64,000 bases of DNA from Gammaproteobacteria bacterium. GTDB lineage: Bacteria > Pseudomonadota > Gammaproteobacteria > Chromatiales > Chromatiaceae. The DNA is taken from assembly GCA_020445415.1 (NCBI GenBank), contig JAGRGP010000101.1, positions 1-64,000 of the forward strand, written 5' to 3'. A program made the translations under genes and the position numbers. Below, in pieces: positions 31,088 to 47,125 of this stretch. The notes beneath the pieces are model-generated. The model was not told where the DNA came from and did no database searches. It saw only the letters and a list, made by a program, of their open reading frames with translations. The first letter of the stretch is position 1. The number at the start of each line of letters is the position of its first letter.

Positions 31088-32272
31088 ATGACCAAGGTCC
31101 TCGTTGTCAATGAGGCCACGGGCGAACGGATGCCCTTCCTCCGGGGGGTACTGGTACAGTCGTTGGTTTCCACCGGGTTGTCTTTCGAAGCCGCGTACCG
31201 GCTCGCGCAGGCGGTGAAAAACGATCTGGGCGAAACGTCTACGATAACCTCCGGTAAACTTCGTGAACAGGTAATCGCCACAATCGAAGCCAAGTTTGGC
31301 CGGGAAATGTCCCAGGCATTTGCGAACCGTTCCCCGGCGGTTATGGAGACTCGGGTGGCGACCTCCTCCGTCAGCAAGCCGTTTTCCGTAGGCATCTTGA
31401 CACGTTCGTTGGAGGCTTGTGCTATACGTCATGACCTGGCACTGCAGACGGCAAGAAGTGTTCAGGCAGAATTACAAGCCGGGGATCGAGCGGAGATCGA
31501 CCATTTGGAGCTGCGGCGCCTCGTCTGTAAGAATCTGCTGGATGGCGGCTCCAGGCAGGCGGCCAACCGTTATCTTTCCTGGCGCTTGTTCAAAGAGAGC
31601 GGTAAGCCGTTAATCATCCTGCTGGGTGGAATTACTGGAACCGGCAAGAGCACCTTGGCGGCGGAGTTGGCCTTTAGATTAGACGTTGTGCGTACCCAAT
31701 CTACGGACATGCTGCGGGAGATCGTTCGGGGTTATCTTGCCGCGGAGGAGGTGCCGACCCTCTCGTACTCCAGTTTCGAGGCCTGGAAGGGATTGGCGTT
31801 CGAGCATCCGCCACCAGGGGAAAGTCCGTCTACCGACCACCTGATTATGGGATTTGAGTCCCAATTCAGCATTGTAAAAAAGGGGCTGGAGGCCACCATT
31901 TCGCGGGCCGTGAAAGAGCGTTTAGACCTCATTATCGATGGCATTCATGTTATACCCCCGCGGTTGGATCTGGAATTGCTGGAAAAGGAGGCACTAATGG
32001 TGCCCACGATGCTGGTTATTGCCAGCCGGGAGATACTCGGCCAACGGCTGGCCGGTCGGAGCCGGGAGCAGCCAAGCCGGGGCGGCTCGAAATATCTGAT
32101 GCACCTCGACGAGATATGGCAGTTGCAGTCCCATCTCGTGGGAATTGCCGAGGAAGGCGACATCCCGTTGCTCTATAACTGGGAAATGAAAGATACCCTC
32201 TTCCAGATGTTGACGCGGGTCAACGATTGCGTGGGAGCGGAATTTCCGGCTGATGTGGACGCATTGCTATGA
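31088..32272 (+). CDS. 2-phosphoglycerate kinase-like protein with ATP-cone modules
   Basis: A 394-residue protein. Residues 1-90 form an ATP-cone domain (VVNEATGERMPFLRGVLVQSLV), and residues about 95-170 look like a second, divergent cone (PFSVGILTRSLEACAI). The kinase part has the P-loop GGITGTGKST at 180-189, then STDMLREIVRGYL, the HVIPPRLD stretch and a C-terminal lid region with SREQPSRGG. This is the plan of 2-phosphoglycerate kinase, known from methanogens making cyclic 2,3-diphosphoglycerate; the bacterial substrate is not established. No good ribosome site precedes the ATG. Its stop overlaps the start of the CHASE histidine kinase by 4 bases, so the two are translationally coupled. 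Confidence 0.85.
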   Translation: MTKVLVVNEATGERMPFLRGVLVQSLVSTGLSFEAAYRLAQAVKNDLGETSTITSGKLREQVIATIEAKFGREMSQAFANRSPAVMETRVATSSVSKPFSVGILTRSLEACAIRHDLALQTARSVQAELQAGDRAEIDHLELRRLVCKNLLDGGSRQAANRYLSWRLFKESGKPLIILLGGITGTGKSTLAAELAFRLDVVRTQSTDMLREIVRGYLAAEEVPTLSYSSFEAWKGLAFEHPPPGESPSTDHLIMGFESQFSIVKKGLEATISRAVKERLDLIIDGIHVIPPRLDLELLEKEALMVPTMLVIASREILGQRLAGRSREQPSRGGSKYLMHLDEIWQLQSHLVGIAEEGDIPLLYNWEMKDTLFQMLTRVNDCVGAEFPADVDALL

Positions 32273-34266
32273 TTCCCGCGGTAACCGCCATGCTAGGCAA
32301 GTGGGGGGAGCTGTTCCGGCAGGTGTTTCACTGGGGGCGTTCGGAGAATAAAACAAGACCCATGGCCAGCAGCGGCGCCACGCCCGCGATTTGGTGGGGA
32401 TACAAGCCCGTGTTTGTGGTGGCGCTGTTGGGCTTGCTAATCACGATTTATTTTTTCCTTGAAGTCTCCGACTGGGAGGAACAGCGTGTCTACACCTTAT
32501 TTCGTGAGGCGTCTCAGGACAGGATCTTAGTAGTCCGCCGCGAGATCGAGCACACACTGGCCACGATTCGGGATATCGCCAGCTATTTTGAAGCTTCGCC
32601 GGAGGTGGGACGTCGCGAGTTTCGAAAATTCGTGGAGCCCGCCATCAAGCGCCATGCGGGGATCAAGGCATTGATGTGGATTCCCCGGGTTTCCCATTCG
32701 GATCGTGAAAGTTTTGTCAAAGAGGCGAGACGCAGTTTTCCACCCTATCTGATAAAGGAGCGCAATCTATCCAAAGAGATTGTCGTGGCTTCTGCGAGAG
32801 ACGAGTATCTGCCTGTGCTTTATGTCCAGCCCTATCAGAAGAATAGGGAGCTGTTAGGGATGGATATGGCATTGGATACGACGATCCACACATTGCTGAG
32901 GCGTAGCGAGGAGACCGGGGAGCTGCGGGTATCGGAGCGGGTAGTCTTGACCGACAATGGCGTGGAACAGTCCGGCTTTGTGGTTGCCATGCCGGTTGAC
33001 TATCAGGAACTGTTGGAACCCGATGGTGGCAGAATTGACGCGGAGGCACCCGGGGGAACTGGGATTCGGGGGTTCGCGGTCGGTATCTTTCGGATTGGAG
33101 ATGTTGTCGAGCCGGCGCTCGAGACGTTGAGTGCGGGGGCGGTTAACATCCGTTTCTTTGAGGAAGTGCAAGCCGGGCAAAAGGTGTTGCTGTACACCCA
33201 TATTTCCCGTATGAGTGGGTCGTCCGACCTCCCGGTGGGGAGTGACGGGGAGGATAGAGAGTGGGTTCACGGGCAAGAGATTTCGCTGGGAGGGCGATAC
33301 TGGAGAGTGGTTTGTACACCGCTCGCCGGCAGATATGAGGCGGATACCTGGAGTGGCTGGGTGGTGCTGGCCGGCGGTATTTCATTTACCGCGTTGCTCA
33401 CGGCGTACGTGGCAACTTTGGTAGGACGGACCAAGAAGGTGAACCGCCTCGTGGAGGTCCGTACCGCCGAGCTGAGTAGTGCGATGGCCAAGATGAACAT
33501 TGAGATAAGAGAGCGCAAGGCCGCGGAGCTGGAATTGAAGACGTTAAACGACGACTTGGAATACTGGGTCGCAATTCGCAGTTCTGAGGCGGCCCGGCGG
33601 GCGCAAGATCTCGAGCAATTCGCTTACGTTACTTCCCACGACCTCAAGGCGCCGTTGCGCGCGATCAGTAATCTCGCCGAATGGATTGGGGAGGACCTGG
33701 AAGACAAGATCGACGACGAATCCCGGGAGCAGCTCGGGCTGCTGAGAGACCGGGTGCGGCGTATGCACGCCTTAATCGAGGGTCTCCTGGAGTATTCACG
33801 GGTCGGGCGTACGGAAGGCTCCTACACCGAAGTCGATACCAAGGAACTCCTGCTTGAACTGATCGACACACTCTCTCCCCCAAAGGGATTTGTCATCAAA
33901 GTTCCCAAGGTTATGCCGGTATTTCGTACTGACCGGCTGTTGCTCGGGCAGGTCTTCGCTAATTTGATCAGCAACAGTCTCAAGCACCATGGAGGATCAC
34001 GAGGGTGTATTGAGATCGGCTGCAATGACAGGGATGGATTTTACGAGTTTTCGGTGGCCGACGATGGCATGGGTATTGCGCCACAGTATCATGAGAAGAT
34101 CTTCATGATTTTTCAAACACTGGAGGCGAAGGACTACGCAGGGAACACGGGCATCGGCCTTGCACTGGTCAAGAAGATCGTTCAGGAGCGAGGTGGGAAG
34201 ATAATGCTGGAGTCGGCACCAGGCGAAGGGGCATGTTTCCGGTTTACCTGGCCAAAACCGGCATGA
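32269..34266 (+). CDS. CHASE-domain sensor histidine kinase
   Basis: A 665-residue inner-membrane sensor. Membrane helices at about 46-66 and 361-386 enclose a periplasmic CHASE domain (about 75-340). A cytosolic coiled coil (VRTAELSSAMAKMNIEIRER) joins a HisKA domain with phospho-acceptor His457 (AYVTSHDLKAPLRAI) and a HATPase domain with LISNSLKHHGG, VADDGMGI and TGIGLALVKKI boxes. The H-box and ATPase type resemble the phytochrome-like Cph1/HK family, which fits the Rcp1-like receiver encoded 136 bases downstream. Translation is coupled to the upstream 2-phosphoglycerate kinase-like gene. The ligand is unknown. Confidence 0.93.
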   Translation: MIPAVTAMLGKWGELFRQVFHWGRSENKTRPMASSGATPAIWWGYKPVFVVALLGLLITIYFFLEVSDWEEQRVYTLFREASQDRILVVRREIEHTLATIRDIASYFEASPEVGRREFRKFVEPAIKRHAGIKALMWIPRVSHSDRESFVKEARRSFPPYLIKERNLSKEIVVASARDEYLPVLYVQPYQKNRELLGMDMALDTTIHTLLRRSEETGELRVSERVVLTDNGVEQSGFVVAMPVDYQELLEPDGGRIDAEAPGGTGIRGFAVGIFRIGDVVEPALETLSAGAVNIRFFEEVQAGQKVLLYTHISRMSGSSDLPVGSDGEDREWVHGQEISLGGRYWRVVCTPLAGRYEADTWSGWVVLAGGISFTALLTAYVATLVGRTKKVNRLVEVRTAELSSAMAKMNIEIRERKAAELELKTLNDDLEYWVAIRSSEAARRAQDLEQFAYVTSHDLKAPLRAISNLAEWIGEDLEDKIDDESREQLGLLRDRVRRMHALIEGLLEYSRVGRTEGSYTEVDTKELLLELIDTLSPPKGFVIKVPKVMPVFRTDRLLLGQVFANLISNSLKHHGGSRGCIEIGCNDRDGFYEFSVADDGMGIAPQYHEKIFMIFQTLEAKDYAGNTGIGLALVKKIVQERGGKIMLESAPGEGACFRFTWPKPA

Positions 34267-34402
34267 AGGGCGGGGTAGACGACGGGATGTACCCATCCGA
34301 GTTTCACCGGCGTTTGCTGGAAAAGGTGGATCGAGAATTGACCACCTCTATAATGGCAATGGTCCCGGGTCTGCGGGACTCTGAAGTTACCGGACGGCAA
34401 CT

Positions 34403-34819
34403 ATGTTGAATGACAATGTACCTATCTTACTGATCGAAGATGACCGCGTGGATATTATGACTGTGCAGCGCGCGTTCAAGAAGAATCAGGTCAAAAATCC
34501 ACTGCATGTGGCACGTACCGGGCTTGAGGCGCTGTGTTTGCTGAAGGGGGATGGGTGTGAAAAGATCAACCCGCCTCCCGGTCTGATTCTGCTGGATCTC
34601 AACCTGCCAAAGATGAGCGGTTTCGAATTTCTCGAAAGGCTGCGTGCCGACCGGGAACTGCAAGGAATTCGGATTATTGTGCTCACTTCCTCGAATGAAC
34701 CTCGCGACCGGGAAGCGGCGTTCAAGTACGATGTTGACGATTATATTGTCAAGCCACATTCCTTCCAGGAGTTCAATCGTGCCATTGGTACGATTCTGGA
34801 ACTATGGGACCTCGATTGA
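34403..34819 (+). CDS. Single-domain response regulator, Rcp1-like
   Basis: A 138-residue CheY-like receiver with no output domain. The phospho-acceptor is Asp65 (LILLDLNLPKMSG), with acidic pocket IEDD at 11-14, switch residue in VLTSS and Lys in IVKPHSF. The spacer loop before the acceptor (GDGCEKINPPPG) and the overall motif set match Rcp1-type regulators paired with phytochrome-like kinases. It lies between the two CHASE kinases and may shuttle phosphoryl groups between them or out of the operon. Confidence 0.92.
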   Translation: MLNDNVPILLIEDDRVDIMTVQRAFKKNQVKNPLHVARTGLEALCLLKGDGCEKINPPPGLILLDLNLPKMSGFEFLERLRADRELQGIRIIVLTSSNEPRDREAAFKYDVDDYIVKPHSFQEFNRAIGTILELWDLD

Positions 34820-34822
34820 TAC

Positions 34823-37435
34823 GTGGCGTCCGAAAATAAGAAAACATCGCCGTCTGTTGGGTTCCCATTCACTATGGAGCAGAATGCCATTTGGTTGGTG
34901 GCCCTTATCGGGTTGACCCTGTCGTTGGCGGCACTTTGGTTAATCCGGCAACAACTGGAGGCTCACCGCCTGTTGGATTTCGAGTGGGTCGCCCACAACC
35001 GCACGCGTGCGCTCAACCACGGCATCGACAACGGATTGTCGGCGATCGAATCGGTTCGGGACTTCTTCTTGGCGTCCAGCGAGGTAGATGCAAATTCATT
35101 TCAGACCTTTGCTGAATCGCTCCTGAAGCGGGTCCAAGGAGTTCATGCATTGATGTGGGTCCCGCGCCGGCCTGGCTCAGAACGGGAGGAATCTCCAGGG
35201 AAGGGAGATGCCGGCATGGCTTTGAGTCGCGGTGAACTACGTCGGGCGTATGGGAGCCACACCTTTCCGGTAACCTATTCTTCTCCAACCGGTATCGCCG
35301 GATTTTCGAAGGGAACGGATCTGGGGGCTATTCCCGGGTTTCTGAAATTGTTGGAGCAGGCCGGCGACAGTGGCCTGCTGGCAGCCAGCGGCCGTATTGA
35401 TTTTTCATCCCAAGGTCAAGACGAAGACTCCGGATACGGCATTATGGCCGCGCTCCCGGTGTACGATCGGGACCTGCCTAACGACATGGTGTCGCGCCGT
35501 AGGCATTTAGCGGGGTTTGTCGTGGGGTTGTTTCGGCTCAGCGATTTGGTCCGGACCTCTATCTCGCTTCTTGAACCCCGCGGTGTTGAGATCCTCGTTT
35601 TGGACGAGTCCGCCCCGCCCGATCGCCAATTCCTGCACTTTTATGCCAGCCGATTGGTGCCGAGGGAAATCGGTGTATCCAACTACGGCCCCTGGTTGCG
35701 GGAGGAGGCGGAGGCAAAGCTAACGGAAAGGATCAAGGTAGCCGACCGTTATTGGTCGATTATCAGTGGACGCACAGACCACTTCCGTAGTGCGGAGGCG
35801 TTCCAGCAGGGGCCGTGGGTGGTGTTGGTTGCCGGGTTGCTGTTCACTCTGCTGCTTTCATTTTACCTTGAACGGATCAGGGAGAATGCTCGGCAGCGCC
35901 GCGAGATGGAGCGGCAGCTAGTGGAGCGGGAGGCGTTGTTTCGGCAGATGATGGAGACGGTAGACGAGGCGTTTTGGGCGGCCAGCGCCGATGGTCGACG
36001 GCTATTGTATCTGAGTCCAGCCTACGAAAAGATTACCGGAAACCTGAGGACGGGGCTGGATAGCTCGTTGGTGGACGCGGTGCATCCCGAAGATCCCCAA
36101 GAACTCGGCGACGCCCTGAGCCGGGTGTGCCGGGAAAAGTCGGATATCGAGGTGATTCATCCCATTCAGCGGGCAGATGGAACACGCCGCTGGATCAGGA
36201 CCCGGGGGTTTCCGGTGGTGGATGAGCAGGGAGAGGTTATCCGGTTGGTGGGATTTTCGGAGGATATCACCGAACGGAAGATTGCGGACGAGGCACTGCG
36301 TGAGTCCGAGGCACAGTTACGCGACCTGTTCCAACAGTCTCCCGATATCATCATGACCGTGGACAAGCGGGGAACAATTTTGTTGATGAACCGATCGATC
36401 CCGGAACTCCCGGCGGAACGCGCGGTAGGGCGCAACTCCTTGGCGCTGATGCCCTCGGACTTCAGAAACTGGTATAAACGGGCATTGGCGGCGGTATTCG
36501 AGGAGAATGTCACCCGCCAGTTCGAATACTCTACCGGTGACGGAGTTTACTGGGCCGGTCGGGTACAACCGCTACACACCGAGGGAGCGGTTACGGCGGC
36601 GATGGTGATCGCCTCGGACGTGACCGAAAAACGCAAGTTGGAGGCCCAATCCCTGAGGAATGCCCGGTTGGCGTCGATCGGGGTGCTAGCGGCCGGAGTT
36701 GCGCATGAGATAAACAATCCCAACAATGCCATACAGTTCAACGCCTCACTGATAAGCCGCGTGTGGGCAGATATTCAGCCGATCCTGTCTGAGTATAGCC
36801 GGGAGAACGGGGATTTTGCCGTGGGTGGACTGGCGTACTCAGAGGCGGCCCAAAGCCTGCCACAGCTGCTGTCGGACATTGGCGGCAACTCCGAACGCAT
36901 CCGCCGAATCGTACTCAATCTCAAGCATATGGCCCGTCAGGATCAGGGGGATTATGCCCAGCGGGTGGATATCGGGCAGATGTTGGAGACGGCGATGCTG
37001 ATTTTGCACAATCAAGTACAAAAATACACGGATGTATGTGTTCTGGATGTCGCTCCAGGGCTGCCCCCGGTTCGGGGTAATTCCCAACAACTCGAGCAGG
37101 TTTTTATCAATCTGCTGCTGAACGCCTTGCAGTCGCTACCCGAACGGAGCCGGGGGGTACACATAACCGCACACTACCAGGCAGATCACCAGCGCGTGGA
37201 TATCCGGGTCAAAGATGAGGGCAAGGGAGTGAGCGAGCATGACATGGGTCGTCTCACCGAGCCGTTCTTCACCACGCGCACGGAATCGGGTGGGACGGGG
37301 CTCGGATTGTCCATCGCCCGATCGATCATGGAGAAGCATGGAGGTAGTTTGATGTTCGAATCAAAACCCGGAGAGGGGACTGTGGTGACCATGCGCCTCC
37401 CGTGTACCGAACCAGCCTCGGAGATTTGGCAATGA
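34823..37435 (+). CDS. CHASE-PAS-PAS sensor histidine kinase, NtrB-like core
   Basis: The start is GTG at 34823, 3 bases after the receiver gene. The 870-residue kinase has membrane helices at about 23-42 and 333-352 enclosing a CHASE-like periplasmic domain. Two PAS domains follow (about 370-490 and 495-600; DAVHPEDPQELGDALSR, FQQSPDIIMTVDKRGTILLM). The HisKA domain has His628 (GVAHEINNPNNAI) and the HATPase has INLLLNALQSL, VKDEGKGV, PFFTTRTESGGTGLGL. The NNPN H-box and FFTT motif are typical of kinases that partner sigma54-dependent regulators. The next gene overlaps its stop by 4 bases and is such a regulator. Confidence 0.94.
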   Translation: MASENKKTSPSVGFPFTMEQNAIWLVALIGLTLSLAALWLIRQQLEAHRLLDFEWVAHNRTRALNHGIDNGLSAIESVRDFFLASSEVDANSFQTFAESLLKRVQGVHALMWVPRRPGSEREESPGKGDAGMALSRGELRRAYGSHTFPVTYSSPTGIAGFSKGTDLGAIPGFLKLLEQAGDSGLLAASGRIDFSSQGQDEDSGYGIMAALPVYDRDLPNDMVSRRRHLAGFVVGLFRLSDLVRTSISLLEPRGVEILVLDESAPPDRQFLHFYASRLVPREIGVSNYGPWLREEAEAKLTERIKVADRYWSIISGRTDHFRSAEAFQQGPWVVLVAGLLFTLLLSFYLERIRENARQRREMERQLVEREALFRQMMETVDEAFWAASADGRRLLYLSPAYEKITGNLRTGLDSSLVDAVHPEDPQELGDALSRVCREKSDIEVIHPIQRADGTRRWIRTRGFPVVDEQGEVIRLVGFSEDITERKIADEALRESEAQLRDLFQQSPDIIMTVDKRGTILLMNRSIPELPAERAVGRNSLALMPSDFRNWYKRALAAVFEENVTRQFEYSTGDGVYWAGRVQPLHTEGAVTAAMVIASDVTEKRKLEAQSLRNARLASIGVLAAGVAHEINNPNNAIQFNASLISRVWADIQPILSEYSRENGDFAVGGLAYSEAAQSLPQLLSDIGGNSERIRRIVLNLKHMARQDQGDYAQRVDIGQMLETAMLILHNQVQKYTDVCVLDVAPGLPPVRGNSQQLEQVFINLLLNALQSLPERSRGVHITAHYQADHQRVDIRVKDEGKGVSEHDMGRLTEPFFTTRTESGGTGLGLSIARSIMEKHGGSLMFESKPGEGTVVTMRLPCTEPASEIWQ

Positions 37436-38859
37436 ACCCACTTAGGGATGCCGCACCTCCCGCGGTGATACTGGTAGACGACGAGCCCAGTGTTTTGCTG
37501 AGTTCGCGTATGATCCTGAACAGCGCGGGGCTGGCCAACGTGCAGACGGTGGCGGATAGCCGGGAGTTGCTGCCGACCCTGCAAGAGCGGGAGGCGGCGG
37601 TGGTCGTACTGGATCTGTTCATGCCCTACCTTTCGGGAACTCAGCTGCTACCCGAGATCATCCGGGATTATCCTGATCTGCCGGTGATTGTGATGACCGC
37701 CTCTCAGGAGGTCGAAACCGCGGTGCGCTGCATGAAGGAGGGTGCCTTCGATTATCTGGTCAAGCCCGTGGAGGAGAGCCGCTTTATTTCTTCGGTCAGG
37801 CGGGCCATGGAGTTACGCTCTTTGCGCCAACAGGTGGGAGCACTAAAGCGATATTTGATCACCGACCAGTTGGAACATGGTGAAGCGTTCAGCGCTATCG
37901 TTACCGTCAGTCGGCGGATGCGCAACCTGTTTCAGTACATGGAAGCAGTCGCAGAAACCGGAGAGCCGGTGCTCATCTCCGGGGAGACCGGAACCGGAAA
38001 AGAATTACTCGCGGAGGCAATGCACAAGCTGAGCAATCGCTCAGGGCCGTTCGTCACGGTTAACGTGGCCGGTCTGGATGACGCGCTGTTTTCGGATACG
38101 CTATTCGGGCACCGGAAAGGGGCCTTTTCCGGAGCGGATTCGCACCGGGAGGGAATGGTTGCTCAGGCCGCGGGTGGGACCCTGTTCCTGGACGAAATTG
38201 GGGATCTGAAGTTACCGTCCCAGGTTAAGCTGTTACGCCTGCTCCAGGAGCGCCAATACTACCCCTTAGGGTCTGACGTGGCCAAGATATGCGATGTGCG
38301 AATCGTTTGCGCGACCAACCAGAATCTTCAGGCGTGCATGTCGCAGAATAAGTTTCGCGCCGATCTGTTCTTTCGCCTGTCGGTTCATCAGGTCGAGGTT
38401 CCGCCGCTGCGCAGGCGCAAGGAAGATATCCCCGCGTTACTCGAACACTTTATCCAGGCCGCTGCTACATCCTTAGAGAAGAAAGCCCCCGCGGCACCTC
38501 CCGAGCTAGAACGTTTACTCGAGAATTACCATTTCCCGGGAAATATCCGGGAGCTGCGGGCAATGGTATTCGATGCGGTAGCCCGTCATCAGGCTGGGAG
38601 CGTACTGTCAGTAAAAGGTTTTAGGAAGTTCATCAAGGCGCAGAGACAGGATTCGCCCACCGTGCCTGATACCCAGCAGGTTGTTATTAGTGACGGCCGC
38701 TTTCCTACTCTCAAGGAAGCGGAGCAGTTACATATTGAAGAGGCCTTGCTCAGGGCCGGCGGAAATCAAGGAACCGCGGCAACCTTACTGGGTATCTCCC
38801 GTCCCGCACTGAACCGGCGTTTATCCCGTATGAAGGGAAAGGGTTCTGATTCCGAATAA
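37432..38859 (+). CDS. Sigma54-dependent response regulator (NtrC family)
   Basis: A 475-residue activator. The receiver domain (about 12-125) has acceptor Asp61 (VVVLDLFMPYLSG). The AAA+ domain (about 150-375) has Walker A GETGTGKE and Walker B GGTLFLDEIGDL. The sigma54-contact loop reads GAFSGA (230-235), a conservative change from GAFTGA. A Fis-type helix-turn-helix closes the protein (AATLLGISRPALNRRLSRM). Start ATG 37432 overlaps the kinase stop and has GGAG upstream. It is the last gene of the five-gene signalling operon; a sigma54 promoter and a palindrome lie directly downstream. Confidence 0.95.
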   Translation: MNPLRDAAPPAVILVDDEPSVLLSSRMILNSAGLANVQTVADSRELLPTLQEREAAVVVLDLFMPYLSGTQLLPEIIRDYPDLPVIVMTASQEVETAVRCMKEGAFDYLVKPVEESRFISSVRRAMELRSLRQQVGALKRYLITDQLEHGEAFSAIVTVSRRMRNLFQYMEAVAETGEPVLISGETGTGKELLAEAMHKLSNRSGPFVTVNVAGLDDALFSDTLFGHRKGAFSGADSHREGMVAQAAGGTLFLDEIGDLKLPSQVKLLRLLQERQYYPLGSDVAKICDVRIVCATNQNLQACMSQNKFRADLFFRLSVHQVEVPPLRRRKEDIPALLEHFIQAAATSLEKKAPAAPPELERLLENYHFPGNIRELRAMVFDAVARHQAGSVLSVKGFRKFIKAQRQDSPTVPDTQQVVISDGRFPTLKEAEQLHIEEALLRAGGNQGTAATLLGISRPALNRRLSRMKGKGSDSE

Positions 38860-39001
38860 AACGTTTCGCGTATGGATTTACGCTAATTCTCATCTAGGCA
38901 GGGCAGTGTCAGCGCCCCAACGGAGCAGCCAGGTCGCTGGGATTACCTCAAGGTTTGTCAGCCGCTAACGTCTTGGTGGAAGACTGGCGCCTACCACAAG
39001 G

Positions 39002-39027
39002 GGTGTAACCTTTTGTCAGGTTACACC
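39002..39027 (+). promoter_or_regulatory. Palindromic enhancer-like site for the sigma54 activator
   Basis: GGTGTAACC (39002-39010), 8 bases, GGTTACACC (39019-39027) are perfect inverted arms, 167 bases upstream of the sigma54 promoter. Distance and symmetry fit an upstream activator site bound by a Fis-type dimer. A single arm GGTTACAT recurs at 39108-39115, preceded by a poor match TGACCCC. There is no T tract, so a terminator for the preceding gene is less likely. Confidence 0.6.
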
Positions 39028-39193
39028 GGCGTGTAATTAAGATAAGTCATTGTAGAAAATAAATATTTAAAGCTTTATTTGTAATTCTTCATGACCCCAG
39101 ACTAAAAGGTTACATCCCTGACACACCATCCCGCATACAGACAGCCGACAGTATCCAGCTGAATTATTATGAGATATGTCAAAATAGTAACAG

Positions 39194-39210
39194 TTGGCCC
39201 AGCTATTGCT
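39194..39210 (+). promoter_or_regulatory. Sigma54 (-24/-12) promoter
   Basis: TTGGCCCAGCTATTGCT matches YTGGCACGRNNNTTGCW at all positions but two, with the required GG and GC dinucleotides exactly 10 bases apart. It starts 133 bases before the next ATG. Confidence 0.8.
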
Positions 39211-39326: not shown

Positions 39327-39635
39327 ATGTCAAAACAGACCGGGAATCATCATAGATTCAGCGCGACTTATGCTTTGCACCAACTAAATAGAAGTGCGTC
39401 CTCCTTGCCCGATGCTGTACCTGGGATCGCGATTCGTGCCGCCTTAGCAACGGTATTAATGTATTTGCTGTTCATCGCCTATCAATTGATGGGCATAGCC
39501 GGGGTAGTCGTTATCAGTATTTTTTTTCTGATTTCGTTAGTTGCACCGGCGCTAGTCAAGCTGTACAGGATCCGCAAGGCGCGTCAGGAGCGCAGCGGAG
39601 AGGCCCTCGAGCCCGTTGCGCAGGTTGAGGAGTGA
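39327..39635 (+). CDS. Small two-helix membrane protein, predicted sigma54 target
   Basis: A 102-residue protein with GGAG before its ATG. A polar N-terminus (MSKQTGNHHRFSATYALHQL) precedes two closely spaced hydrophobic segments at about 35-53 (AIRAALATVLMYLLFIAYQ) and 55-75 (MGIAGVVVISIFFLISLVAP), then a basic region and an acidic tail. Both ends are probably cytosolic. No family is recognised. It is the first gene after the sigma54 promoter and is therefore the best candidate for direct control by the upstream two-component system. Confidence 0.65.
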   Translation: MSKQTGNHHRFSATYALHQLNRSASSLPDAVPGIAIRAALATVLMYLLFIAYQLMGIAGVVVISIFFLISLVAPALVKLYRIRKARQERSGEALEPVAQVEE

Positions 39636-39773: not shown

Positions 39774-40001
39774 ATGAACTATCCTGCGTTAGCAAGAAAG
39801 CCGGTAGAGTTTCAAGATCAGCAAACCCAAATATTGTGCCGTCACCGAATACAGTCCACACTATTTGTTCAGAAATGTCGGGCAAAACAACGGGTCATCA
39901 TTCAAAAGCTGGGTAAGGATTTAGATGAGCATGACCGGGATCGGCTTCACGAACGGTTGCAGATAGTGAAGGCACGTCTCTTGGGTCTGCATAGCTGTTA
40001 G
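39774..40001 (+). CDS. Small basic helical protein, unknown
   Basis: A 75-residue frame in the same direction as the preceding small gene. The second half is a regular charged helix (RVIIQKLGKDLDEHDRDRLHERLQIVKARLLGL) that looks like real protein. AGG lies 10 bases before the ATG. Two cysteines (C22, C35) and the final cysteine are present. No function can be given. It may be cotranscribed from the sigma54 promoter. Confidence 0.5.
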   Translation: MNYPALARKPVEFQDQQTQILCRHRIQSTLFVQKCRAKQRVIIQKLGKDLDEHDRDRLHERLQIVKARLLGLHSC

Positions 40002-40189: not shown

Positions 40190-42004
40190 ATGATTAAGAA
40201 AATATTTCTACCAACGATCCTCGTGATTCTGGCATATGGGTTCTGGATCAGCCCGGATTTTAAGGAGATCTCTGCGGGTGTGGCGATCTTTTTATTCGGT
40301 ATGCTTTCATTGGAAGAGGGGTTCAAAGCGTTTACCGGCGGGTTGCTCGAGCGGTTGCTGCGCAAGACCACTGACAGGCTATGGAAAGCCCTCAGTTTTG
40401 GTGTGGTTTCTACCACCCTCATGCAGTCCAGTTCTCTGGTTTCTGTTATTACCATCTCCTTTCTCAGTGCCGGGTTGATTACGCTGGCTGCCGGTATCGG
40501 CATCATCTTCGGTGCCAACCTGGGGACTACCACGGGCGCTTGGTTGATCGCCGGTTTTGGTATGAAGGTGAAGATCTCCGCCTACGCCATGCCCATGCTC
40601 GTGTTTGGCATCATTCTGGTTTTTCAGAAATCCAAGAGCCTGAACGGTGTCGGCTACATCCTTGCCGGTTTGGGGTTCTTGTTCCTCGGCATCCACCACA
40701 TGAAGGAGGGATTCGAGGCGTTTAGGGATACCATCGATCTGACCCAATTTGCGGTGGAGGGCTATGCAGGGGTACTGCTATTCACCCTGTTAGGCGTGGC
40801 GGCGACGGTCATCATGCAATCCAGTCATGCCACCCTGGTGATTATCATCACCGCCTTGGCAGCGGGGCAGATCACCTATGAGAATGGTTTGGGGCTCGCG
40901 ATCGGAGCCAACATCGGTACCACAATCACCGCCATTCTTGGTTCCATGAGTTCCAATGTACAGGGTAAGCGGTTGGCCGCGGCCCATTTGATCTTCAATG
41001 TGGTGACCGCAGTTATCGCCATTGGGTTGATCAACCAGTTGATGAATTTCGTGGATGTCTTTTCAGCATGGGTAGGCATTCCCGCTGACGATTGGACCCT
41101 AAAGCTTGCAGTGTTCCATTCTGTCTTTAACACGATTGGTATCGTGGTGATGATGCCCTTCACCAACCAATTGGTGAACTTTCTGGAACGTATAATGCCC
41201 CAGAAGAAGCTCGCTATGGCCCAGCCCAAGTTTCTCAACGATTCTGTGATCGAGCTGCCGGATACGGCCATCGAGGCGGTTCGTCAAGAGACCTTGCATC
41301 TCTACGATAATGCCTTCGCGATCCTTGCCCACGGACTGAGTTTGCACCGCCATGACATTCTCTCCGAGCGTGAGCTGGAAGAGGTTGTCAAGGAAGGTAA
41401 GAAGGTCATGCCAATCAACATCGATGAGGAGTACAACGCCAGCGTCAAGGGGTTGTACAGCGAAATCGTCAAGTTCATCAGCCGTGCCCAGACATCGATG
41501 ACACCTGAACAGGCCGACGAAATGTTTGCGCTACGGGCCGCTGGACGAGATATCGTCGAGGCGATCAAAGACACCAAGCACATGCACAAGAACCTGTCCC
41601 GTTACATTGTCTCGGACAATGAGGATATTCGCACCGAGTACAACAATATCCGCGTGCAACTGGGAACCGTTCTGCGCCGCCTGGCGGAGGCCCGGGCGGA
41701 GGAAGATGATCCCACCGCGATACTCTCACTCGATACTATCCGGGTCGAGATGGAGGAAAATGACAGTACCGCCAACGGCATTCTCGAGATGCTGATCAGG
41801 GAAAGCAGGATCACCGCCGAGATGGCGACTTCGCTGATGAACGACAGTGCTTACGCCTACGATGTGGCCAAGAATCTGGTGCAGATGGGGGATGTGCTGT
41901 TCGCGAGTGGAGACTCTGCTATGAAGGACGAGGAACGGCTATTGGTTTTGGATGAGGACGAAGTGGAAGAGGCCGCTCGCTTGGTTCGGGAGGATGCCTC
42001 CTGA
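40190..42004 (+). CDS. Na/Pi cotransporter family protein with PhoU-like C-terminus
   Basis: A 604-residue transporter. The membrane part (about 1-340) holds two inverted Na/Pi-cotransporter repeats, each with the QSSS-type motif: STTLMQSSSLVSV near residue 80 and ATVIMQSSHATLV near 208. GANLGTT and GANIGTT follow them. The second repeat has QSSH where QSSS is usual. The cytosolic part (about 365-604) is a PhoU-like helical domain that usually gates or reports phosphate flux. AGGA precedes the ATG. A strong terminator follows the gene, so it is transcribed as a single unit or as the end of the unit starting at the small genes. Confidence 0.93.
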   Translation: MIKKIFLPTILVILAYGFWISPDFKEISAGVAIFLFGMLSLEEGFKAFTGGLLERLLRKTTDRLWKALSFGVVSTTLMQSSSLVSVITISFLSAGLITLAAGIGIIFGANLGTTTGAWLIAGFGMKVKISAYAMPMLVFGIILVFQKSKSLNGVGYILAGLGFLFLGIHHMKEGFEAFRDTIDLTQFAVEGYAGVLLFTLLGVAATVIMQSSHATLVIIITALAAGQITYENGLGLAIGANIGTTITAILGSMSSNVQGKRLAAAHLIFNVVTAVIAIGLINQLMNFVDVFSAWVGIPADDWTLKLAVFHSVFNTIGIVVMMPFTNQLVNFLERIMPQKKLAMAQPKFLNDSVIELPDTAIEAVRQETLHLYDNAFAILAHGLSLHRHDILSERELEEVVKEGKKVMPINIDEEYNASVKGLYSEIVKFISRAQTSMTPEQADEMFALRAAGRDIVEAIKDTKHMHKNLSRYIVSDNEDIRTEYNNIRVQLGTVLRRLAEARAEEDDPTAILSLDTIRVEMEENDSTANGILEMLIRESRITAEMATSLMNDSAYAYDVAKNLVQMGDVLFASGDSAMKDEERLLVLDEDEVEEAARLVREDAS

Positions 42005-42476
42005 TAGCGAACCGGTTCGTTGCCCGGGGGTATTCCCCGGACAGCGCTACCGGTTTCAGGTCTGGCAGGGAACCGATTCGTAGTCGGTTGAACTACTGGT
42101 CTGGATGTGATTGTGGGTGATGCTATCAACTTGGTGTCGCCCGTTGTTTTGACAAGCTCCGCTCTGGATTCCTAGCGGAGCTTTTTTTTCTACCGAAGAT
42201 TGTCGGCCCGTTCGGCCGCCGGTTGTTCAAACGGCGCCGGTAACAAGGAATCCATGCATCGCGCCTGGTATTTTCGATCCCCGGCTTGCCTCCGCAGCGC
42301 TCGGTCTTTTGGCAGGTTTCAAAAAAGCGGTAATACTTAAGTACGTCATTCCAACTAAGGTCCACTAGAGTCATTCGGGCGTTGACCGGTTGTGATAACC
42401 TGATTCCCGGATCGTGCCTTGAGGATCTGTGGGGCACCTAACTCGGGCATTTCAAGGCTAAACCAATAACTTGCCA
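42005..42476. other. Intergenic region between Na/Pi transporter and TIR gene
   Basis: Apart from the terminator (42154-42189) no gene is seen. The last 280 bases should carry the promoter of the TIR-STAND operon. A TTGACC occurs at 42382-42387 but no -10 lies at usable spacing, so I do not call a promoter. Confidence 0.4.
42154..42189 (+). terminator. Rho-independent terminator after the Na/Pi cotransporter
   Basis: AAGCTCCGCT (42154-42163), a 10-base loop, AGCGGAGCTT (42174-42183) form a perfect stem running into eight Ts. It insulates the TIR operon from upstream transcription. Confidence 0.95.
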
Positions 42477-43541
42477 ATGGAACACAACATCTTTATCAGT
42501 TACGCATGGGTGGATAACGAGGTCTATCCCGGAAGTGACCAAGGATGGGTCAGTACCTTCGTTGACAGTCTTCGCAAGCACCTCGCCCACGAACTGGGAC
42601 GGCGAGACGAGGCTGAGAAAATCTGGCTGGATTACGAACAGATGCGTGGCAACCAGGGCGTTACACCTACCATACAGGCTCGACTGGCCGCATCACGGAC
42701 ATTGCTTCTGATCCTCTCTAATGGTTATGTTGCCTCACACTGGTGTCAGCAAGAGCTGACCGCTTTCCTGGCAAGGGCCGGCACCAACTCGGACTGCCTC
42801 TTCGTGGTACAGATGTCTCCGGTGGAGCAGGAGCCGGATGGGATCCAGGACTTGGTTAAATACCCGTTCTGGTATCTGGATGATCGGCGCCAGCCTTGTA
42901 CCCGCTGGTTTCCCCATATCGATCCCACGGATCGCGAGTATTCACTGGTGCAGCAAAAATTGGCGCGGGATATAGCCGCAAAATTGCGTGAACTTCTCCC
43001 CGCTGACAACCAACCGCGGGAAAGCTCCTCGGCAGAGGAGCAAGCGCCGCCCGCAGCCAGGGCCGCAACGCCGGTTGTCCTGTCAGCGGTGCCAATGACA
43101 GAGCCCCCATCAAACGGGTCGGGTCAGTTCGTACTGGTAAGCGGCGGAGAAGGCGATCGGGAGTTGGTGCACCAAATCGCCAAACGTCTCCAGCAACACA
43201 ATATTGGGGTGGCGATACCACTTTCAGTGCTGGCTGATCAATCGGGGATCAAGAGTTCTACGCTGACCCGGGATCTGCGAACCAAGCTGAGTCTTTGTGA
43301 TGCTGTGTTGATGGTCTACCGCAGTGGCCCGTTGGATCAAGTCAGTCAGCATCTTATCGAATGCCTCAAGGCGGGTGCTCGAACACGCCGGGGCCAGACT
43401 CCACCCACGATCGATTTGTGCCAAACACAGCTGGATTCTTTGGCACTGGGCCTGTATCCGCCAGGGATGCGAATCCATATGGTAGACAAGTCCTGCGCCG
43501 ACGATTGCGTTGATCAGTTTCTCGAAGGGCTGGTTTCGTGA
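42477..43541 (+). CDS. TIR-domain protein with second TIR-like domain
   Basis: A 354-residue cytosolic protein starting at ATG 42477 (MEHNIFISYAW); a TTG six bases upstream is the other option and neither has a clear ribosome site. The N-terminal TIR domain (about 1-165) has strand A NIFISYAWVDNE, IWLDYEQMRGNQ and the helix motif SHWCQQELTAF, whose glutamate occupies the position of the catalytic Glu of NAD-cleaving TIR enzymes. After a Pro/Ala linker (about 180-215), a second Rossmann-like segment (about 222-352; FVLVSGGEGDRELVHQIAKRL, CDAVLMVYRSGPLDQV) looks like a degenerate TIR domain. Its stop overlaps the GTG start of the nSTAND-WD40 gene by 4 bases, so the two proteins are made together. 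Confidence 0.9.
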   Translation: MEHNIFISYAWVDNEVYPGSDQGWVSTFVDSLRKHLAHELGRRDEAEKIWLDYEQMRGNQGVTPTIQARLAASRTLLLILSNGYVASHWCQQELTAFLARAGTNSDCLFVVQMSPVEQEPDGIQDLVKYPFWYLDDRRQPCTRWFPHIDPTDREYSLVQQKLARDIAAKLRELLPADNQPRESSSAEEQAPPAARAATPVVLSAVPMTEPPSNGSGQFVLVSGGEGDRELVHQIAKRLQQHNIGVAIPLSVLADQSGIKSSTLTRDLRTKLSLCDAVLMVYRSGPLDQVSQHLIECLKAGARTRRGQTPPTIDLCQTQLDSLALGLYPPGMRIHMVDKSCADDCVDQFLEGLVS

Positions 43542-46500
43542 TTGTTAACCCCTATCCGGGGCTACGTCCTTTCAAACGGAGCGAAAGCGCTATCTTCTTC
43601 GGCCGAGAAGAGCAGGTCGATCAGTTGTTGGACAAACTTGGCGAGACCCATTTTCTGGCGGTCCTGGGTGCATCAGGCTCGGGTAAGTCCTCGTTGGTGC
43701 ATGCCGGCCTTCTCCCGGCCCTCGACAGCGGCTTTATGGCCGGACAGGGTGCCCACTGGATGGTTGCCGGGATTCGTCCCGGAGACCGGCCGTTCGAGCG
43801 GTTGGCGGAGGCATTGCTGTCTGAAACTCCTTGGGGCCATGCCAGCGGTGGATACCATGCCTCTTCCGGTGCCCCGGCCGCTGAAAATGATGAGCCGGTA
43901 ACGGAATTGGCCGGAATCCTCCGCCAAGGGAGGCTGGCTCTCAATTGGCGCCTGGGTATCACGCCACTGCCTGCTGGGGGACGGCTGCTGATACTGGTAG
44001 ACCAATTCGAAGAGCTTTTTCGCTATCACCGCAAAGCGGACGCCGAGGCGGCCGCGTTTGTTTCGCTGCTATTGGGAGCCGCCACTCATCCGGATGTATT
44101 CGTGGTGATCACCATGCGCTCGGAATTCCTCGGAGACTGCTCGCTCTACCCGGATCTTCCCGAGGCCATCAATAGCGGACTCTTTCTCACCCCCTCCCTT
44201 GGCCCGGAACAGACCGCCGACGCGATTCAACTGCCGGCACGGATATTCAGCGGAGAGGTTGCGCCCGACTTGGTCCGTTATCTGCTGAAAGAGGCCAAGG
44301 GCGAGCGAGACCGGTTGCCCCTGTTACAGCACGCGCTGACCCGGCTATGGGACATGGATCGGGAGGACCGCCACCTGACGCTTGACCGGCTCGGTGTTCT
44401 CGGTGGCCTAAGGCAAGCCCTAGAACAACATGCCGAGGAGGCATATTCCACACTGAATTCTGAGCAGCAGCGGATTGCCGAGGTCATGTTTCGCTCCTTG
44501 ACCGAACGGGGTCCGGAGGAGCGGGATACCCGCCGTCCGGTGCACTTAGGCGAGGTGGCCGATCTTGCCGGGGTTAGGATCGGGGAAGCGAGCGCGGTTG
44601 TGGAGATCTTTCGGGGCCAAGGGCGGTGTTTCGTTCTACCACCCGAAGGTACCCCGCTGGAGCGGACGACAGTGATAGATATATCCCACGAAGCGTTGAT
44701 TCGCCAGTGGACACGGCTGCGGAACTGGACCATCGATGAGGCGGAACGGGTGGAAATGTATCTGCGCTTGGTGGCTGCCGCGCTGCGTTGGAGACAAGGC
44801 CAGGGAGCACTCTGGATTGATCCTGATCTGGAGTTTGCATTGCAATGGCGGGAACGGACTCAACCGAGCCCCCGCTGGGCTGCTAGGTACGGTGGTGACT
44901 TCGCGGCCAGTATGGCTTTTCTCGATGCCAGTCACGCACAGCGCACGCAAACGCACCGGGAGCTGGCTGCACGTCGGGCGCTAGCCTTGCGTCGGGCAAA
45001 AATCACGGCACTGGCCGCGTCCTTGGGCCTGGTTATTGTTGCGGGGGTTGCCGGATGGGGGTGGTGGGAACGGCAGCGTGCCTGGGAGTCGGAGCAGCAG
45101 CGTACCTCGGATCTCTTTGATTCCGGCTTGACCCACGGGGCATTGCTCTCCCGGACCGAAGACTACGCGGCGGCACGGCGGGTTCTTGAGAGTACCCGCC
45201 AATTGGACCCGGAGATCCCCCGGGTTCGGCGCTTGGCCCGCAATCTATCGAGCCGCTATGCAAATATACTGGGCGGGTCCAGCGAGCAAGTCTACCTAGT
45301 GCCCGGCGTCTCCCTCTCCCAGGCGATTGTTAGCCCGGATGGGCGATGGCTCGCCGCTTGCGGTGAGCGTGGGACCCTCGTGTTATTCGACGTGGACAGC
45401 GGCGAACTGGTGCACCGTCTGCGGGGACACGATCCGCGGTTTCAGCTGCGGGATTGCGTCTTTCATCCTGATGGTCAGTGGCTAGCGAGCGCGGGAGATG
45501 AGGGACGGATACTGATTTGGTCCATGCCGGCGCCAGGGGAAGCGCCCGCCATCCAGCGGCGATGGCTGGCACCGGGTGAGGTGATGGCCTTGGCTGTCAG
45601 CCCCGATGGGCAGCTACTGGCCAGCGGTGGCACCGATCACGATATTACCCTCTGGCGGGCGGCAGACGGCACCCAGGTGCGTACCCTGAAGGGACACACG
45701 GATCGTATCTCTGAGGTTACCGGGCTATCCTTTGCTCCCCGGGGCGGGCTTCTGGCCAGCGCCAGCTATGACGGTACCGCCCGACTGTGGGACCCCGCTA
45801 CCGGCGCCCAGATCGCGGGTTATCAGGACCACAGTGCCGCGGTGAAAAGTGTGGCATTCAGCCGCGACGGCAGATTACTGGCTACCGGGGGAGACGATAA
45901 CCGGGTGATTCTGCGGGACCTCGAGGGGAATCAAGCGCCCCGGGTTTTTACCGGACACCGCAATATGGTTTACGGTCTGGCTTTCGCGGAACACCCCGAC
46001 GAACCCGGTGCAGCGCCTTTATTGGTTGCTGCCGGTTTCGATCGCACCCTGAGGGTGTGGGATTCCAGCAGCGCTGCGACCTTGCGCCTTTTTCAAGGTC
46101 ATTCGGCGGCAGTCAACGGAATTGACATACACGGCGGCAGTATCTTCAGTGCCGCCAATGACGGCAGTGTCCGCCGTTGGGGCCTCTCGCTTCCCTATCA
46201 GCGGCTGCTAGAGGTTCCCGAGGGGGAGCCAGCTTCCGCCGCAATCTCCCCCGATGGCCGATTCTTGGCCCTGGGCCTGGCGGATGGTGGGCTGCAGCTC
46301 TATGCGCTTCCCAATCTGGCGCTGCTGCATCGGGAGCCAACTGCTCACGCCGAGGAGCTGCAGCGATTAGATTTCTCCCCCGATGGGCGTTTACTGGCGA
46401 GCGGGGGGTTCGACGGAAAGGCAAGGCTCTGGCAGGTGCTACCCGACGGCCGGCTCGTGCCCTCCCGAACCCTTGTCGGACACGTCGATGCCATCCACGC

Positions 46501-47125
46501 GGTTGCGTTCTCTCCCGATGGACAAACGGTGGCAACCGCCGGCTACGATGGCCAGATTGGGCTGTTCGATACGGCAAGCGGGGCGGGGAAGTTCATATCG
46601 ACCACCCGGGGACAGGTGTTGTCGGTCGCCTTCGGTCCCAACGGCCAGCTCGTTTACAGCGCCGATCGTGATGATGGCAGTGTACGAGAATGGGACATCG
46701 AGGTAGAACCGCCGGTTCTGCGGCGGGAACTCCCCGTCCTTAGCCATCTGTTGCTGTGGGCGGAACCCGATGTGCTCGGTACTACCTTGGCTGCGGTGGG
46801 TACCGACTACACCGTTTCGATCGTGAACCTCGAAGACAACCGAGTGGTACAGGTTTTGCCCCGCCATGAAAATTCGGTCTTCAAGGCACGCTTTCTGCCC
46901 GGTGGTGGCCAGCTCGCCACCGTTAGCGTGGATGCCACGGTGCGGCTCTGGGATTTGCACACCAATAGCGAACTGTTCACCTTGCGCCTGCCCACCAACC
47001 AGGGCGACCCCATCCCGCTCTGGGACTTCGATCTACGCTGTACCCCTACAGGTTGTTGGCTTGTGGTTCCCCTGACCCGGGGCAAGCTCGCACTATACAA
47101 TTTTGGCATGCCGGATGAAGGATAA
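43538..47125 (+). CDS. Membrane-anchored nSTAND NTPase with tandem WD40 propellers
   Basis: A 1195-residue protein starting at GTG 43538. It opens with NPYPGLRPFKRSESAIFFGRE, the signature of nSTAND1 ATPases. Walker A is GASGSGKS (44-51) and Walker B LLILVDQFEE (150-159). A winged-helix/helical region (about 250-400) and a bundle lead to a single membrane helix at about 489-510 (ITALAASLGLVIVAGVAGWGWW). About 14 WD40 blades fill residues 585-1190, enough for two seven-blade propellers. Topology suggests the NTPase is cytosolic and the propellers periplasmic. STAND proteins are switches that oligomerise on ligand binding and activate effectors; the coupled TIR protein is the likely effector. 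Several internal blades are very similar, suggesting repeat expansion. Confidence 0.9.
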   Translation: MIVNPYPGLRPFKRSESAIFFGREEQVDQLLDKLGETHFLAVLGASGSGKSSLVHAGLLPALDSGFMAGQGAHWMVAGIRPGDRPFERLAEALLSETPWGHASGGYHASSGAPAAENDEPVTELAGILRQGRLALNWRLGITPLPAGGRLLILVDQFEELFRYHRKADAEAAAFVSLLLGAATHPDVFVVITMRSEFLGDCSLYPDLPEAINSGLFLTPSLGPEQTADAIQLPARIFSGEVAPDLVRYLLKEAKGERDRLPLLQHALTRLWDMDREDRHLTLDRLGVLGGLRQALEQHAEEAYSTLNSEQQRIAEVMFRSLTERGPEERDTRRPVHLGEVADLAGVRIGEASAVVEIFRGQGRCFVLPPEGTPLERTTVIDISHEALIRQWTRLRNWTIDEAERVEMYLRLVAAALRWRQGQGALWIDPDLEFALQWRERTQPSPRWAARYGGDFAASMAFLDASHAQRTQTHRELAARRALALRRAKITALAASLGLVIVAGVAGWGWWERQRAWESEQQRTSDLFDSGLTHGALLSRTEDYAAARRVLESTRQLDPEIPRVRRLARNLSSRYANILGGSSEQVYLVPGVSLSQAIVSPDGRWLAACGERGTLVLFDVDSGELVHRLRGHDPRFQLRDCVFHPDGQWLASAGDEGRILIWSMPAPGEAPAIQRRWLAPGEVMALAVSPDGQLLASGGTDHDITLWRAADGTQVRTLKGHTDRISEVTGLSFAPRGGLLASASYDGTARLWDPATGAQIAGYQDHSAAVKSVAFSRDGRLLATGGDDNRVILRDLEGNQAPRVFTGHRNMVYGLAFAEHPDEPGAAPLLVAAGFDRTLRVWDSSSAATLRLFQGHSAAVNGIDIHGGSIFSAANDGSVRRWGLSLPYQRLLEVPEGEPASAAISPDGRFLALGLADGGLQLYALPNLALLHREPTAHAEELQRLDFSPDGRLLASGGFDGKARLWQVLPDGRLVPSRTLVGHVDAIHAVAFSPDGQTVATAGYDGQIGLFDTASGAGKFISTTRGQVLSVAFGPNGQLVYSADRDDGSVREWDIEVEPPVLRRELPVLSHLLLWAEPDVLGTTLAAVGTDYTVSIVNLEDNRVVQVLPRHENSVFKARFLPGGGQLATVSVDATVRLWDLHTNSELFTLRLPTNQGDPIPLWDFDLRCTPTGCWLVVPLTRGKLALYNFGMPDEG

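Follow-up and report, generated by a model that had tools for sequence, protein, structure and literature searches.

Why should the gene for a 2-phosphoglycerate-kinase-like enzyme run into the gene for a CHASE histidine kinase? The question was raised by positions 31,088 to 38,859 of a 64,000-nucleotide stretch of contig JAGRGP010000101.1, which at its full length is referred to below as the window. The genome from which it comes, that of a gammaproteobacterium of the GTDB family Chromatiaceae, is assembled as 3.79 Mb in 185 contigs. Five genes lie there in a row on the + strand, as do the protein domains, the promoter and the other genes, up to the Na/Pi symporter, given coordinates below: the kinase, a CHASE histidine kinase (HK1), a single-domain receiver (REC), a second CHASE histidine kinase (HK2) and an NtrC-type sigma54 activator. 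A reading made without database searches (the sequence-only reading) had treated the row as one arrangement, in which a metabolite kinase is coupled to a two-component cascade. The row is in fact two units, kinase-HK1-REC and HK2-NtrC. Our favored interpretation, held with somewhat more belief than doubt, is that two conserved regulatory units meet at this locus, both pointing to phosphate homeostasis, and that the probable product of the kinase is 2,3-bisphosphoglycerate.

The kinase and its partners HK1 and REC

The kinase gene (31088..32272) encodes a 394-amino-acid (aa) protein that was assigned, on domain, profile and structure evidence, to the 2-phosphoglycerate-kinase-like proteins (type A), with two ATP cones and a P-loop kinase domain. 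The second cone (residues 97-169; 31376..31594) passed the Pfam cut-off (PF03477, 32 bits versus 25.8) and is the one clear ATP cone of the sequence-only reading, in which a further cone had been called possible. A Pfam scan gave no match over this first, N-terminal cone (residues 1-87; 31088..31348). In the predicted structure of the kinase (mean predicted local distance difference test score, 86.6), the region showed the same strand-strand-helix-helix-strand-helix pattern as the second cone, and structure comparison aligned it with the ATP cone of NrdR (9a6n_B; Z 12.3, root mean square deviation 3.7, 85 residues) in a list that held few cone rows, since the kinase domain takes up most of it. 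The predicted model supports an ATP-cone fold for the first cone, and the possible module was to that extent borne out. The kinase domain (residues about 170-384; 31595..32239) carries the P-loop GGITGTGKST and matched nucleoside monophosphate kinase and gluconate kinase folds (Z about 13).

The top NCBIfam models for the protein were those of 2-phosphoglycerate kinase (2PGK; 266.5 bits, E 3e-79); another, weak match was to a mevalonate-3-phosphate 5-kinase model. As in its best-matching family (NF003259/PRK04220 and NF008994/PRK12337), an ATP cone precedes an intact P-loop kinase domain, but the window kinase scores under the curated cut-offs, has an extra N-terminal cone and has HK1 and REC as neighbors. 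The P-loop residues were invariant in 16/16 aligned type-A kinases, and the two-cone layout was also present in relatives without HK1. A sequence search of the PDB detected no solved member of the kinase family, its matches being weak and confined to P-loops and ATP cones. The role of 2PGK-like proteins in bacteria is, to our knowledge, unsettled. ApgM converts 3-phosphoglycerate to 2-phosphoglycerate and back, whereas 2PGK attaches a further phosphate group; on these family relationships, the window kinase probably produces 2,3-bisphosphoglycerate from 2-phosphoglycerate.

The 4-base overlap reported for the kinase and CHASE kinase genes was confirmed, the kinase ending and HK1 beginning within a shared ATGA at 32269-32272. 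HK1 (32269..34266) has a CHASE-HisKA-HATPase_c architecture in which the CHASE (118.5 bits), HisKA and HATPase_c matches were all over the Pfam cut-offs, and it is followed by REC (34403..34819; 138 aa). HK1 and HK2 both resemble the cytokinin-receptor-like sensors in carrying CHASE with HisKA-HATPase_c but differ from them in that HK1 is encoded with a metabolite kinase and HK2 with an NtrC-type regulator. Phospho-acceptor and ATP-binding motifs were kept in HK1 (29 sequences), REC (24), HK2 (14) and the NtrC-type protein (14).

Conservation of this arrangement was examined among type-A kinases, which have about 41-53% identity to the window kinase (types B and C have 40% or less). Adjacency was read by eye, and near-identical loci from both searches were counted once. 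Two of the 24 same-family type-A loci, window included, were cut by contig ends; of the other 22, 19 had HK1 directly 3' of the kinase, and three had a histidine phosphatase gene adjoining the kinase instead. At one cut locus (G219) the kinase reaches the contig end and another contig opens within HK1, with REC and a histidine phosphatase gene after it, which fits a kinase-HK1 link without showing it. With loci from outside the family added, the kinase-HK1 neighborhood was present at 26 distinct loci, window included, and REC was 3' of HK1 in 20 of the 21 with a long enough contig. In a tree of 81 kinase-family members, which carries a long-branch warning and has the window kinase among its long branches, the HK1-linked kinases fell into one clade of 27 rows (support 100/96) comprising 25 HK1 neighbors, 1 histidine phosphatase neighbor and 1 cut contig; ApgM-linked kinases lay across a fully supported branch. 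Excluded from this tree were L039 and L097 (diverged or broken start), the fragment L139 and duplicate loci. The kinase-HK1-REC association is confirmed as real and conserved. A chance neighborhood of kinase and HK1 was considered and was ruled out by the recurrence at other loci and the clustering on the tree. It had been suggested that the coupling would be refuted by a kinase gene found elsewhere without signaling neighbors and with only central-metabolism phenotypes; this applies in part, since most members of the wider family were without HK1 and since several genomes have HK1-REC but not the kinase beside it.

Two of the type-A kinases, in metagenome-assembled genomes titled Neomarinimicrobiota (L127) and Halobacteria (L129), nested within Gammaproteobacteria; their contigs are therefore probably misbinned, and they were kept in the adjacency counts.

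HK2-NtrC and a palindromic element upstream of a sigma54-like promoter

HK2 (34823..37435), a CHASE-PAS-PAS-HisKA-HATPase_c kinase, starts with a GTG at 34823, leaving 3 bp after the REC stop at 34819. Its CHASE (88 bits) and HATPase_c matches were over the Pfam cut-offs and its HisKA match was under (22.9 bits versus 26.9), with the histidine box kept in 14 sequences. The NtrC-type gene (37432..38859) overlaps HK2 at 37432-37435, with its ATG at 37432 and a possible upstream GTG at 37402. Its product has the receiver, AAA+ (Sigma54_activat) and HTH_8 domains of an NtrC-type activator. The consensus sigma54-contact loop of such activators is GAFTGA; the loop here is GAFSGA, and the serine was present in at least 95% of 14 orthologues. 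Coordinates and domains of all five genes agreed with the order given by the sequence-only reading.

Thirteen other genomes encode close relatives of the HK2 sensor region (47-63% identity, at least 262 bits), and an NtrC orthologue (70-75%) lay 3' of HK2 in 13/13. The kinase and an HK1 orthologue were beside HK2-NtrC in 0/13, with contigs ending nearby in L191 and L199. The inclusion of HK2 and the sigma54 regulator in the conserved kinase unit was thus not supported; conservation of gene order was found for kinase-HK1-REC and not for HK2-NtrC beside the kinase. Because HK2 starts 3 bp after REC, the two units are probably co-transcribed in the window, an arrangement specific to this genome as far as seen. 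In the other genomes, HK2-NtrC was followed by a homologue of a 102-aa protein in 4/13 (L188, L193, L194 and L199) and by a Na/Pi symporter in 3/13 (L188, L199 and L200).

Both genes also follow the NtrC-type gene in the window. The first encodes a putative membrane protein of 102 aa without a Pfam or NCBIfam match (39327..39635), and the second a 604-aa Na/Pi symporter (40190..42004; PF02690; NF037997, 171.6 bits, cut-off 50); a 75-aa open reading frame (ORF) lies at 39774..40001. Between the NtrC-type gene and the 102-aa gene are a perfect palindrome with 10-bp arms, GGTGTAACCT-N6-AGGTTACACC (39002..39027), which is a putative upstream activator site, and, 170 bp past it, a sigma54-like promoter, TGGCCC-N5-TTGCT, with one mismatch (39195..39210). 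A second half-site, AAAAGGTTACATCCCT (39104..39119), is 94% complementary to 38999-39014.

The exact core, TGTAAC-N10-GTTACA, occurred 12 times in 14 genomes picked for having HK2, versus 5 times for its backward control. A sigma54-like site (GG and GC intact) lay 168-182 bp from 12/12 of these palindromes (L247 had a second candidate at 208), whereas random points had such a site at 160-190 bp in 40/4,000 cases. The composite of palindrome and sigma54-like site was found at 15 places in 12/204 genomes and its backward control at none; with a -24/-12 spacing one base longer (GG-N10-TGC), and a slightly different distance range, the composite was found in 0/204. It was present in 9/14 genomes with HK2 versus 3/190 without (Fisher, 2.9e-10), a comparison that is not fully independent, as the motif was derived from the HK2 genomes themselves. 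Seven of the 12 palindromes lie upstream of the 102-aa gene, a Na/Pi symporter gene or both (window, L188, L194, L200, L201, L202 and L248); L202 stands for another symporter encoded by the same genome as the window, one that carries a PhoU domain. Sigma54-like sites were weak by themselves (45 versus 30.9 expected). A search of the window's genome for the long palindrome core with up to 2 mismatches gave 11 matches versus 15 for the control, an absence of excess on account of which only exact palindrome sites were used. The motif was absent from the main text of the sigma54 regulon papers searched. Related coiled-coil-like ORFs of about 75 aa followed the promoter in L200, L247, L249, L250 and L251 (31-58% mutual identity); the window's 75-aa ORF aligned with such ORFs over its full length and gave no significant BLAST match to them. 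A role of the palindrome as a terminator was ruled out, as no T-run follows it and as it pairs with the sigma54-like site in other genomes.

With its PAS-containing kinase, its receiver-AAA+-Fis regulator and an enhancer-like palindrome upstream of a sigma54-like promoter, this unit resembles NtrB-NtrC and AtoS-AtoC. It differs in its CHASE sensor, its TGTAAC-N10-GTTACA palindrome, its predicted Na/Pi symporter target and the GAFSGA in place of GAFTGA. HK2 would phosphorylate the NtrC-type activator, which would bind the palindrome about 175 bp from the sigma54 promoter; HK2-NtrC would then be a transcriptional arm that switches on the 102-aa membrane protein and the symporter.

Phosphate-gene context and competing explanations

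The vicinity of the kinase was scored for a Pit, PhoU_div, Na/Pi symporter, PPK1, ApgM, CYTH or histidine phosphatase gene within 6 kb. Such a gene was present in 24/43 cases for type A, 28/32 for the other types and 12/20 in a class-level set, versus 0/20 stretches picked arbitrarily in four complete genomes from the family. The counts are lowered by several contigs shorter than the 6-kb reach, and the test is not fully independent, the neighbor list having been drawn up after the family loci and the class-level set overlapping the named collection described below. In one genome (G211) a single row reads PhoU_div-Pit-x-phosphoesterase-kinase A-HK1-REC-kinase B-ApgM. A 209-aa P-loop-like protein, encoded between the Pit and phosphoesterase genes at L032:6263-6892, recurs in several Pit clusters and had no Pfam or NCBIfam match.

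The transporter families concerned (Pit with PhoU_div, and Na/Pi) are those of the Pho regulon with its accessory regulators PhoU, PitR and NptA, and several accessory-regulator families have been described for phosphate control (PMC13170248). The present system differs in that the window is without a Pho box and the regulator is of the sigma54 type, not PhoB. The palindrome with its sigma54 element would amount to a predicted regulon for a phosphate transporter without a Pho box.

Gene order, its conservation, the domains, the pairing of palindrome with sigma54-like site and the phosphate genes around the kinase family are computed results, whereas we infer what the enzyme does, what the proteins bind, which partners exchange phosphate, where the regulator contacts DNA and whether the two units communicate. 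In our model the two-cone kinase is co-expressed with HK1 and REC. HK1 would sense an external cue through its CHASE domain and pass phosphate to REC, which has no DNA-binding domain and would have to work through contact with other proteins. Most plausibly, HK1-REC adjusts the kinase or responds to its product. The ATP cones may tie the rate of the kinase to adenine nucleotides, and the histidine phosphatase may remove 2,3-bisphosphoglycerate.

A number of observations weigh against the phosphate-homeostasis interpretation. The score of the kinase was below the curated NF003259 cut-off of 343 bits. The window kinase itself has no phosphate gene inside the 6-kb reach, the symporter being 7.9 kb away. 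Scoring of the window with the Escherichia coli Pho box consensus, CTGTCAT-N4-CTGTCAT, gave 2 matches with 3 mismatches versus 3.95 expected, which is no excess. Among 20 further distinct type-A loci, from a named collection outside the family, HK1 was beside the kinase in only 7; in the other 13 a CYTH gene was directly downstream in six (sequences read by eye) and a histidine phosphatase was present in three. HK1 sensor region matches were present in 38/204 genomes, and HK1-REC was without the kinase in most of 15 loci read (mostly picked for having no known adjacent kinase, with two cut by contig ends), including those of the same-genus genomes G001 and G002; the kinase therefore cannot be the sole client of REC in all species. 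G002 lacks any kinase homologue. The exact composite site was missing in 5/14 HK2 genomes, was present in G009 and G152 without an HK2 match at 1e-20 and had no recognized related gene beside it in G077. One palindrome precedes an aminotransferase gene (L246), and in G113, G153 and G160 the element precedes a small coiled-coil-like ORF rather than a transporter. Members of the Na/Pi family can, moreover, export phosphate (YjbB; PMC11389368), so that transport here could run in either direction and the HK2-NtrC arm could guard against phosphate excess as well as lack.

Other explanations were weighed against the same evidence. That the kinase is there merely to provide 2,3-bisphosphoglycerate, whether as cofactor for a mutase or as a compatible solute, with HK1-REC just co-transcribed, seems unlikely. 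Type B kinases do adjoin ApgM-type mutases, some type-A kinases adjoin histidine phosphatases of the phosphoglycerate-mutase superfamily, and in methanogens 2PGK makes the precursor of the thermoprotectant cyclic 2,3-diphosphoglycerate (PMC12136491); yet ApgM is cofactor independent, the HK1 link spans a whole kinase clade, and Pit, PhoU_div, PPK1 and CYTH neighbors would be unexpected for a mutase cofactor. It is quite unlikely that the kinase acts on another substrate, such as an inositol phosphate, to give a phosphate store or signal. Such an activity would suit the sub-cut-off 2PGK score, the weak mevalonate-3-phosphate 5-kinase match and the rice 2PGK homologue Lpa1 (OsPGK1), a proposed inositol monophosphate kinase that affects phytic acid and total seed phosphorus (PMC4844318). 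The recurrent neighbors, however, are phosphoglycerate mutase and histidine phosphatase genes, and no inositol gene was recognized among them, though none was searched for. Lpa1 is likened here by description: it shares a 2PGK relationship and a tie to phosphorus storage, but it is a plant gene for which the excerpts of PMC4844318 mention no two-component partner.

The two remaining explanations concern the wiring of the locus. One, in which the whole row forms a single cascade running from the kinase through HK1, REC and HK2 to NtrC, would account for five genes on one strand with short gaps; given that unit 2 lies apart from the kinase in 13/13 other genomes and that no palindrome was found upstream of the kinase in the window, we regard it as very unlikely. 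We give even less credence to the kinase being mainly an adenine-nucleotide sensor that touches HK1 directly via its ATP cones, with catalysis secondary. Its two cones and the ATGA coupling to HK1 would agree with such contact, but the invariant P-loop, the two-cone layout of relatives without HK1 and the existence of HK1 without the kinase argue against it.

On the phosphate-homeostasis interpretation, the conserved union of kinase, sensor and receiver amid phosphate importer, polyphosphate kinase and CYTH genes offers a testable role in phosphate homeostasis, and a phosphate role of the kinase family may bear on how Lpa1 controls seed phosphorus. A bolder extension, which we advance tentatively and hold to be doubtful, is that 2,3-bisphosphoglycerate or a related bisphosphorylated C3 metabolite signals phosphate or energy status in these gammaproteobacteria. 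It would be made by the two-cone kinase, cleared by the histidine phosphatase whose gene often adjoins that of the kinase and managed by a dedicated CHASE histidine kinase-receiver pair, while a parallel CHASE-histidine kinase/sigma54 regulon controlled Na/Pi transport; on this view Lpa1 would form a distant branch of that family of phosphate-status kinases. Each part of the locus is already known individually, and no published 2PGK-CHASE-kinase unit or sigma54 element of this kind was found in searches limited to open-licence PMC papers.

Distribution of the kinase family and further observations

A kinase-family member was detected at E 1e-20 or better in 67/210 genomes of the GTDB family. 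The window's own genome has three, the window gene and two others with 35 and 30% identity to it (G000:C24:2544-3707 and G000:C40:32237-33412); the former of these two adjoins PhoU_div, Pit and CNNM/CorC genes. An alignment-based contig scan yielded 52 loci, whereas a single-sequence scan detected no relatives. Named relatives from the alignment scan included Chromatiaceae and Chromatiales metagenome-assembled genomes, endosymbionts of the tubeworms Lamellibrachia and Escarpia, and Candidatus Thiosymbion. The 2PGK model matched 20/369 genomes of a class-wide sample, none over the curated cut-off, and 3/14 control genomes (Thermus, Deinobacterium and Methanocaldococcus). Genes for an archaeal phosphoglycerate mutase and 2PGK are common to Thermus and Deinococcus (PMC1274311).

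In G042 a 2PGK-like kinase domain forms the C terminus of an 818-aa protein (L313:7693-10149) with a HAD-phosphatase-like N terminus (by eye), encoded next to a phosphoenolpyruvate synthase-like gene and its regulator-like gene; similar frames of 820-1019 aa were present in four further genomes (G332, G340, G371 and G480). Elsewhere in the window, at 42471-47125, a TIR-like protein (by eye) overlaps by 4 bases a 1195-aa nucleoside triphosphatase with WD-like repeats, a pair resembling a defense pair.

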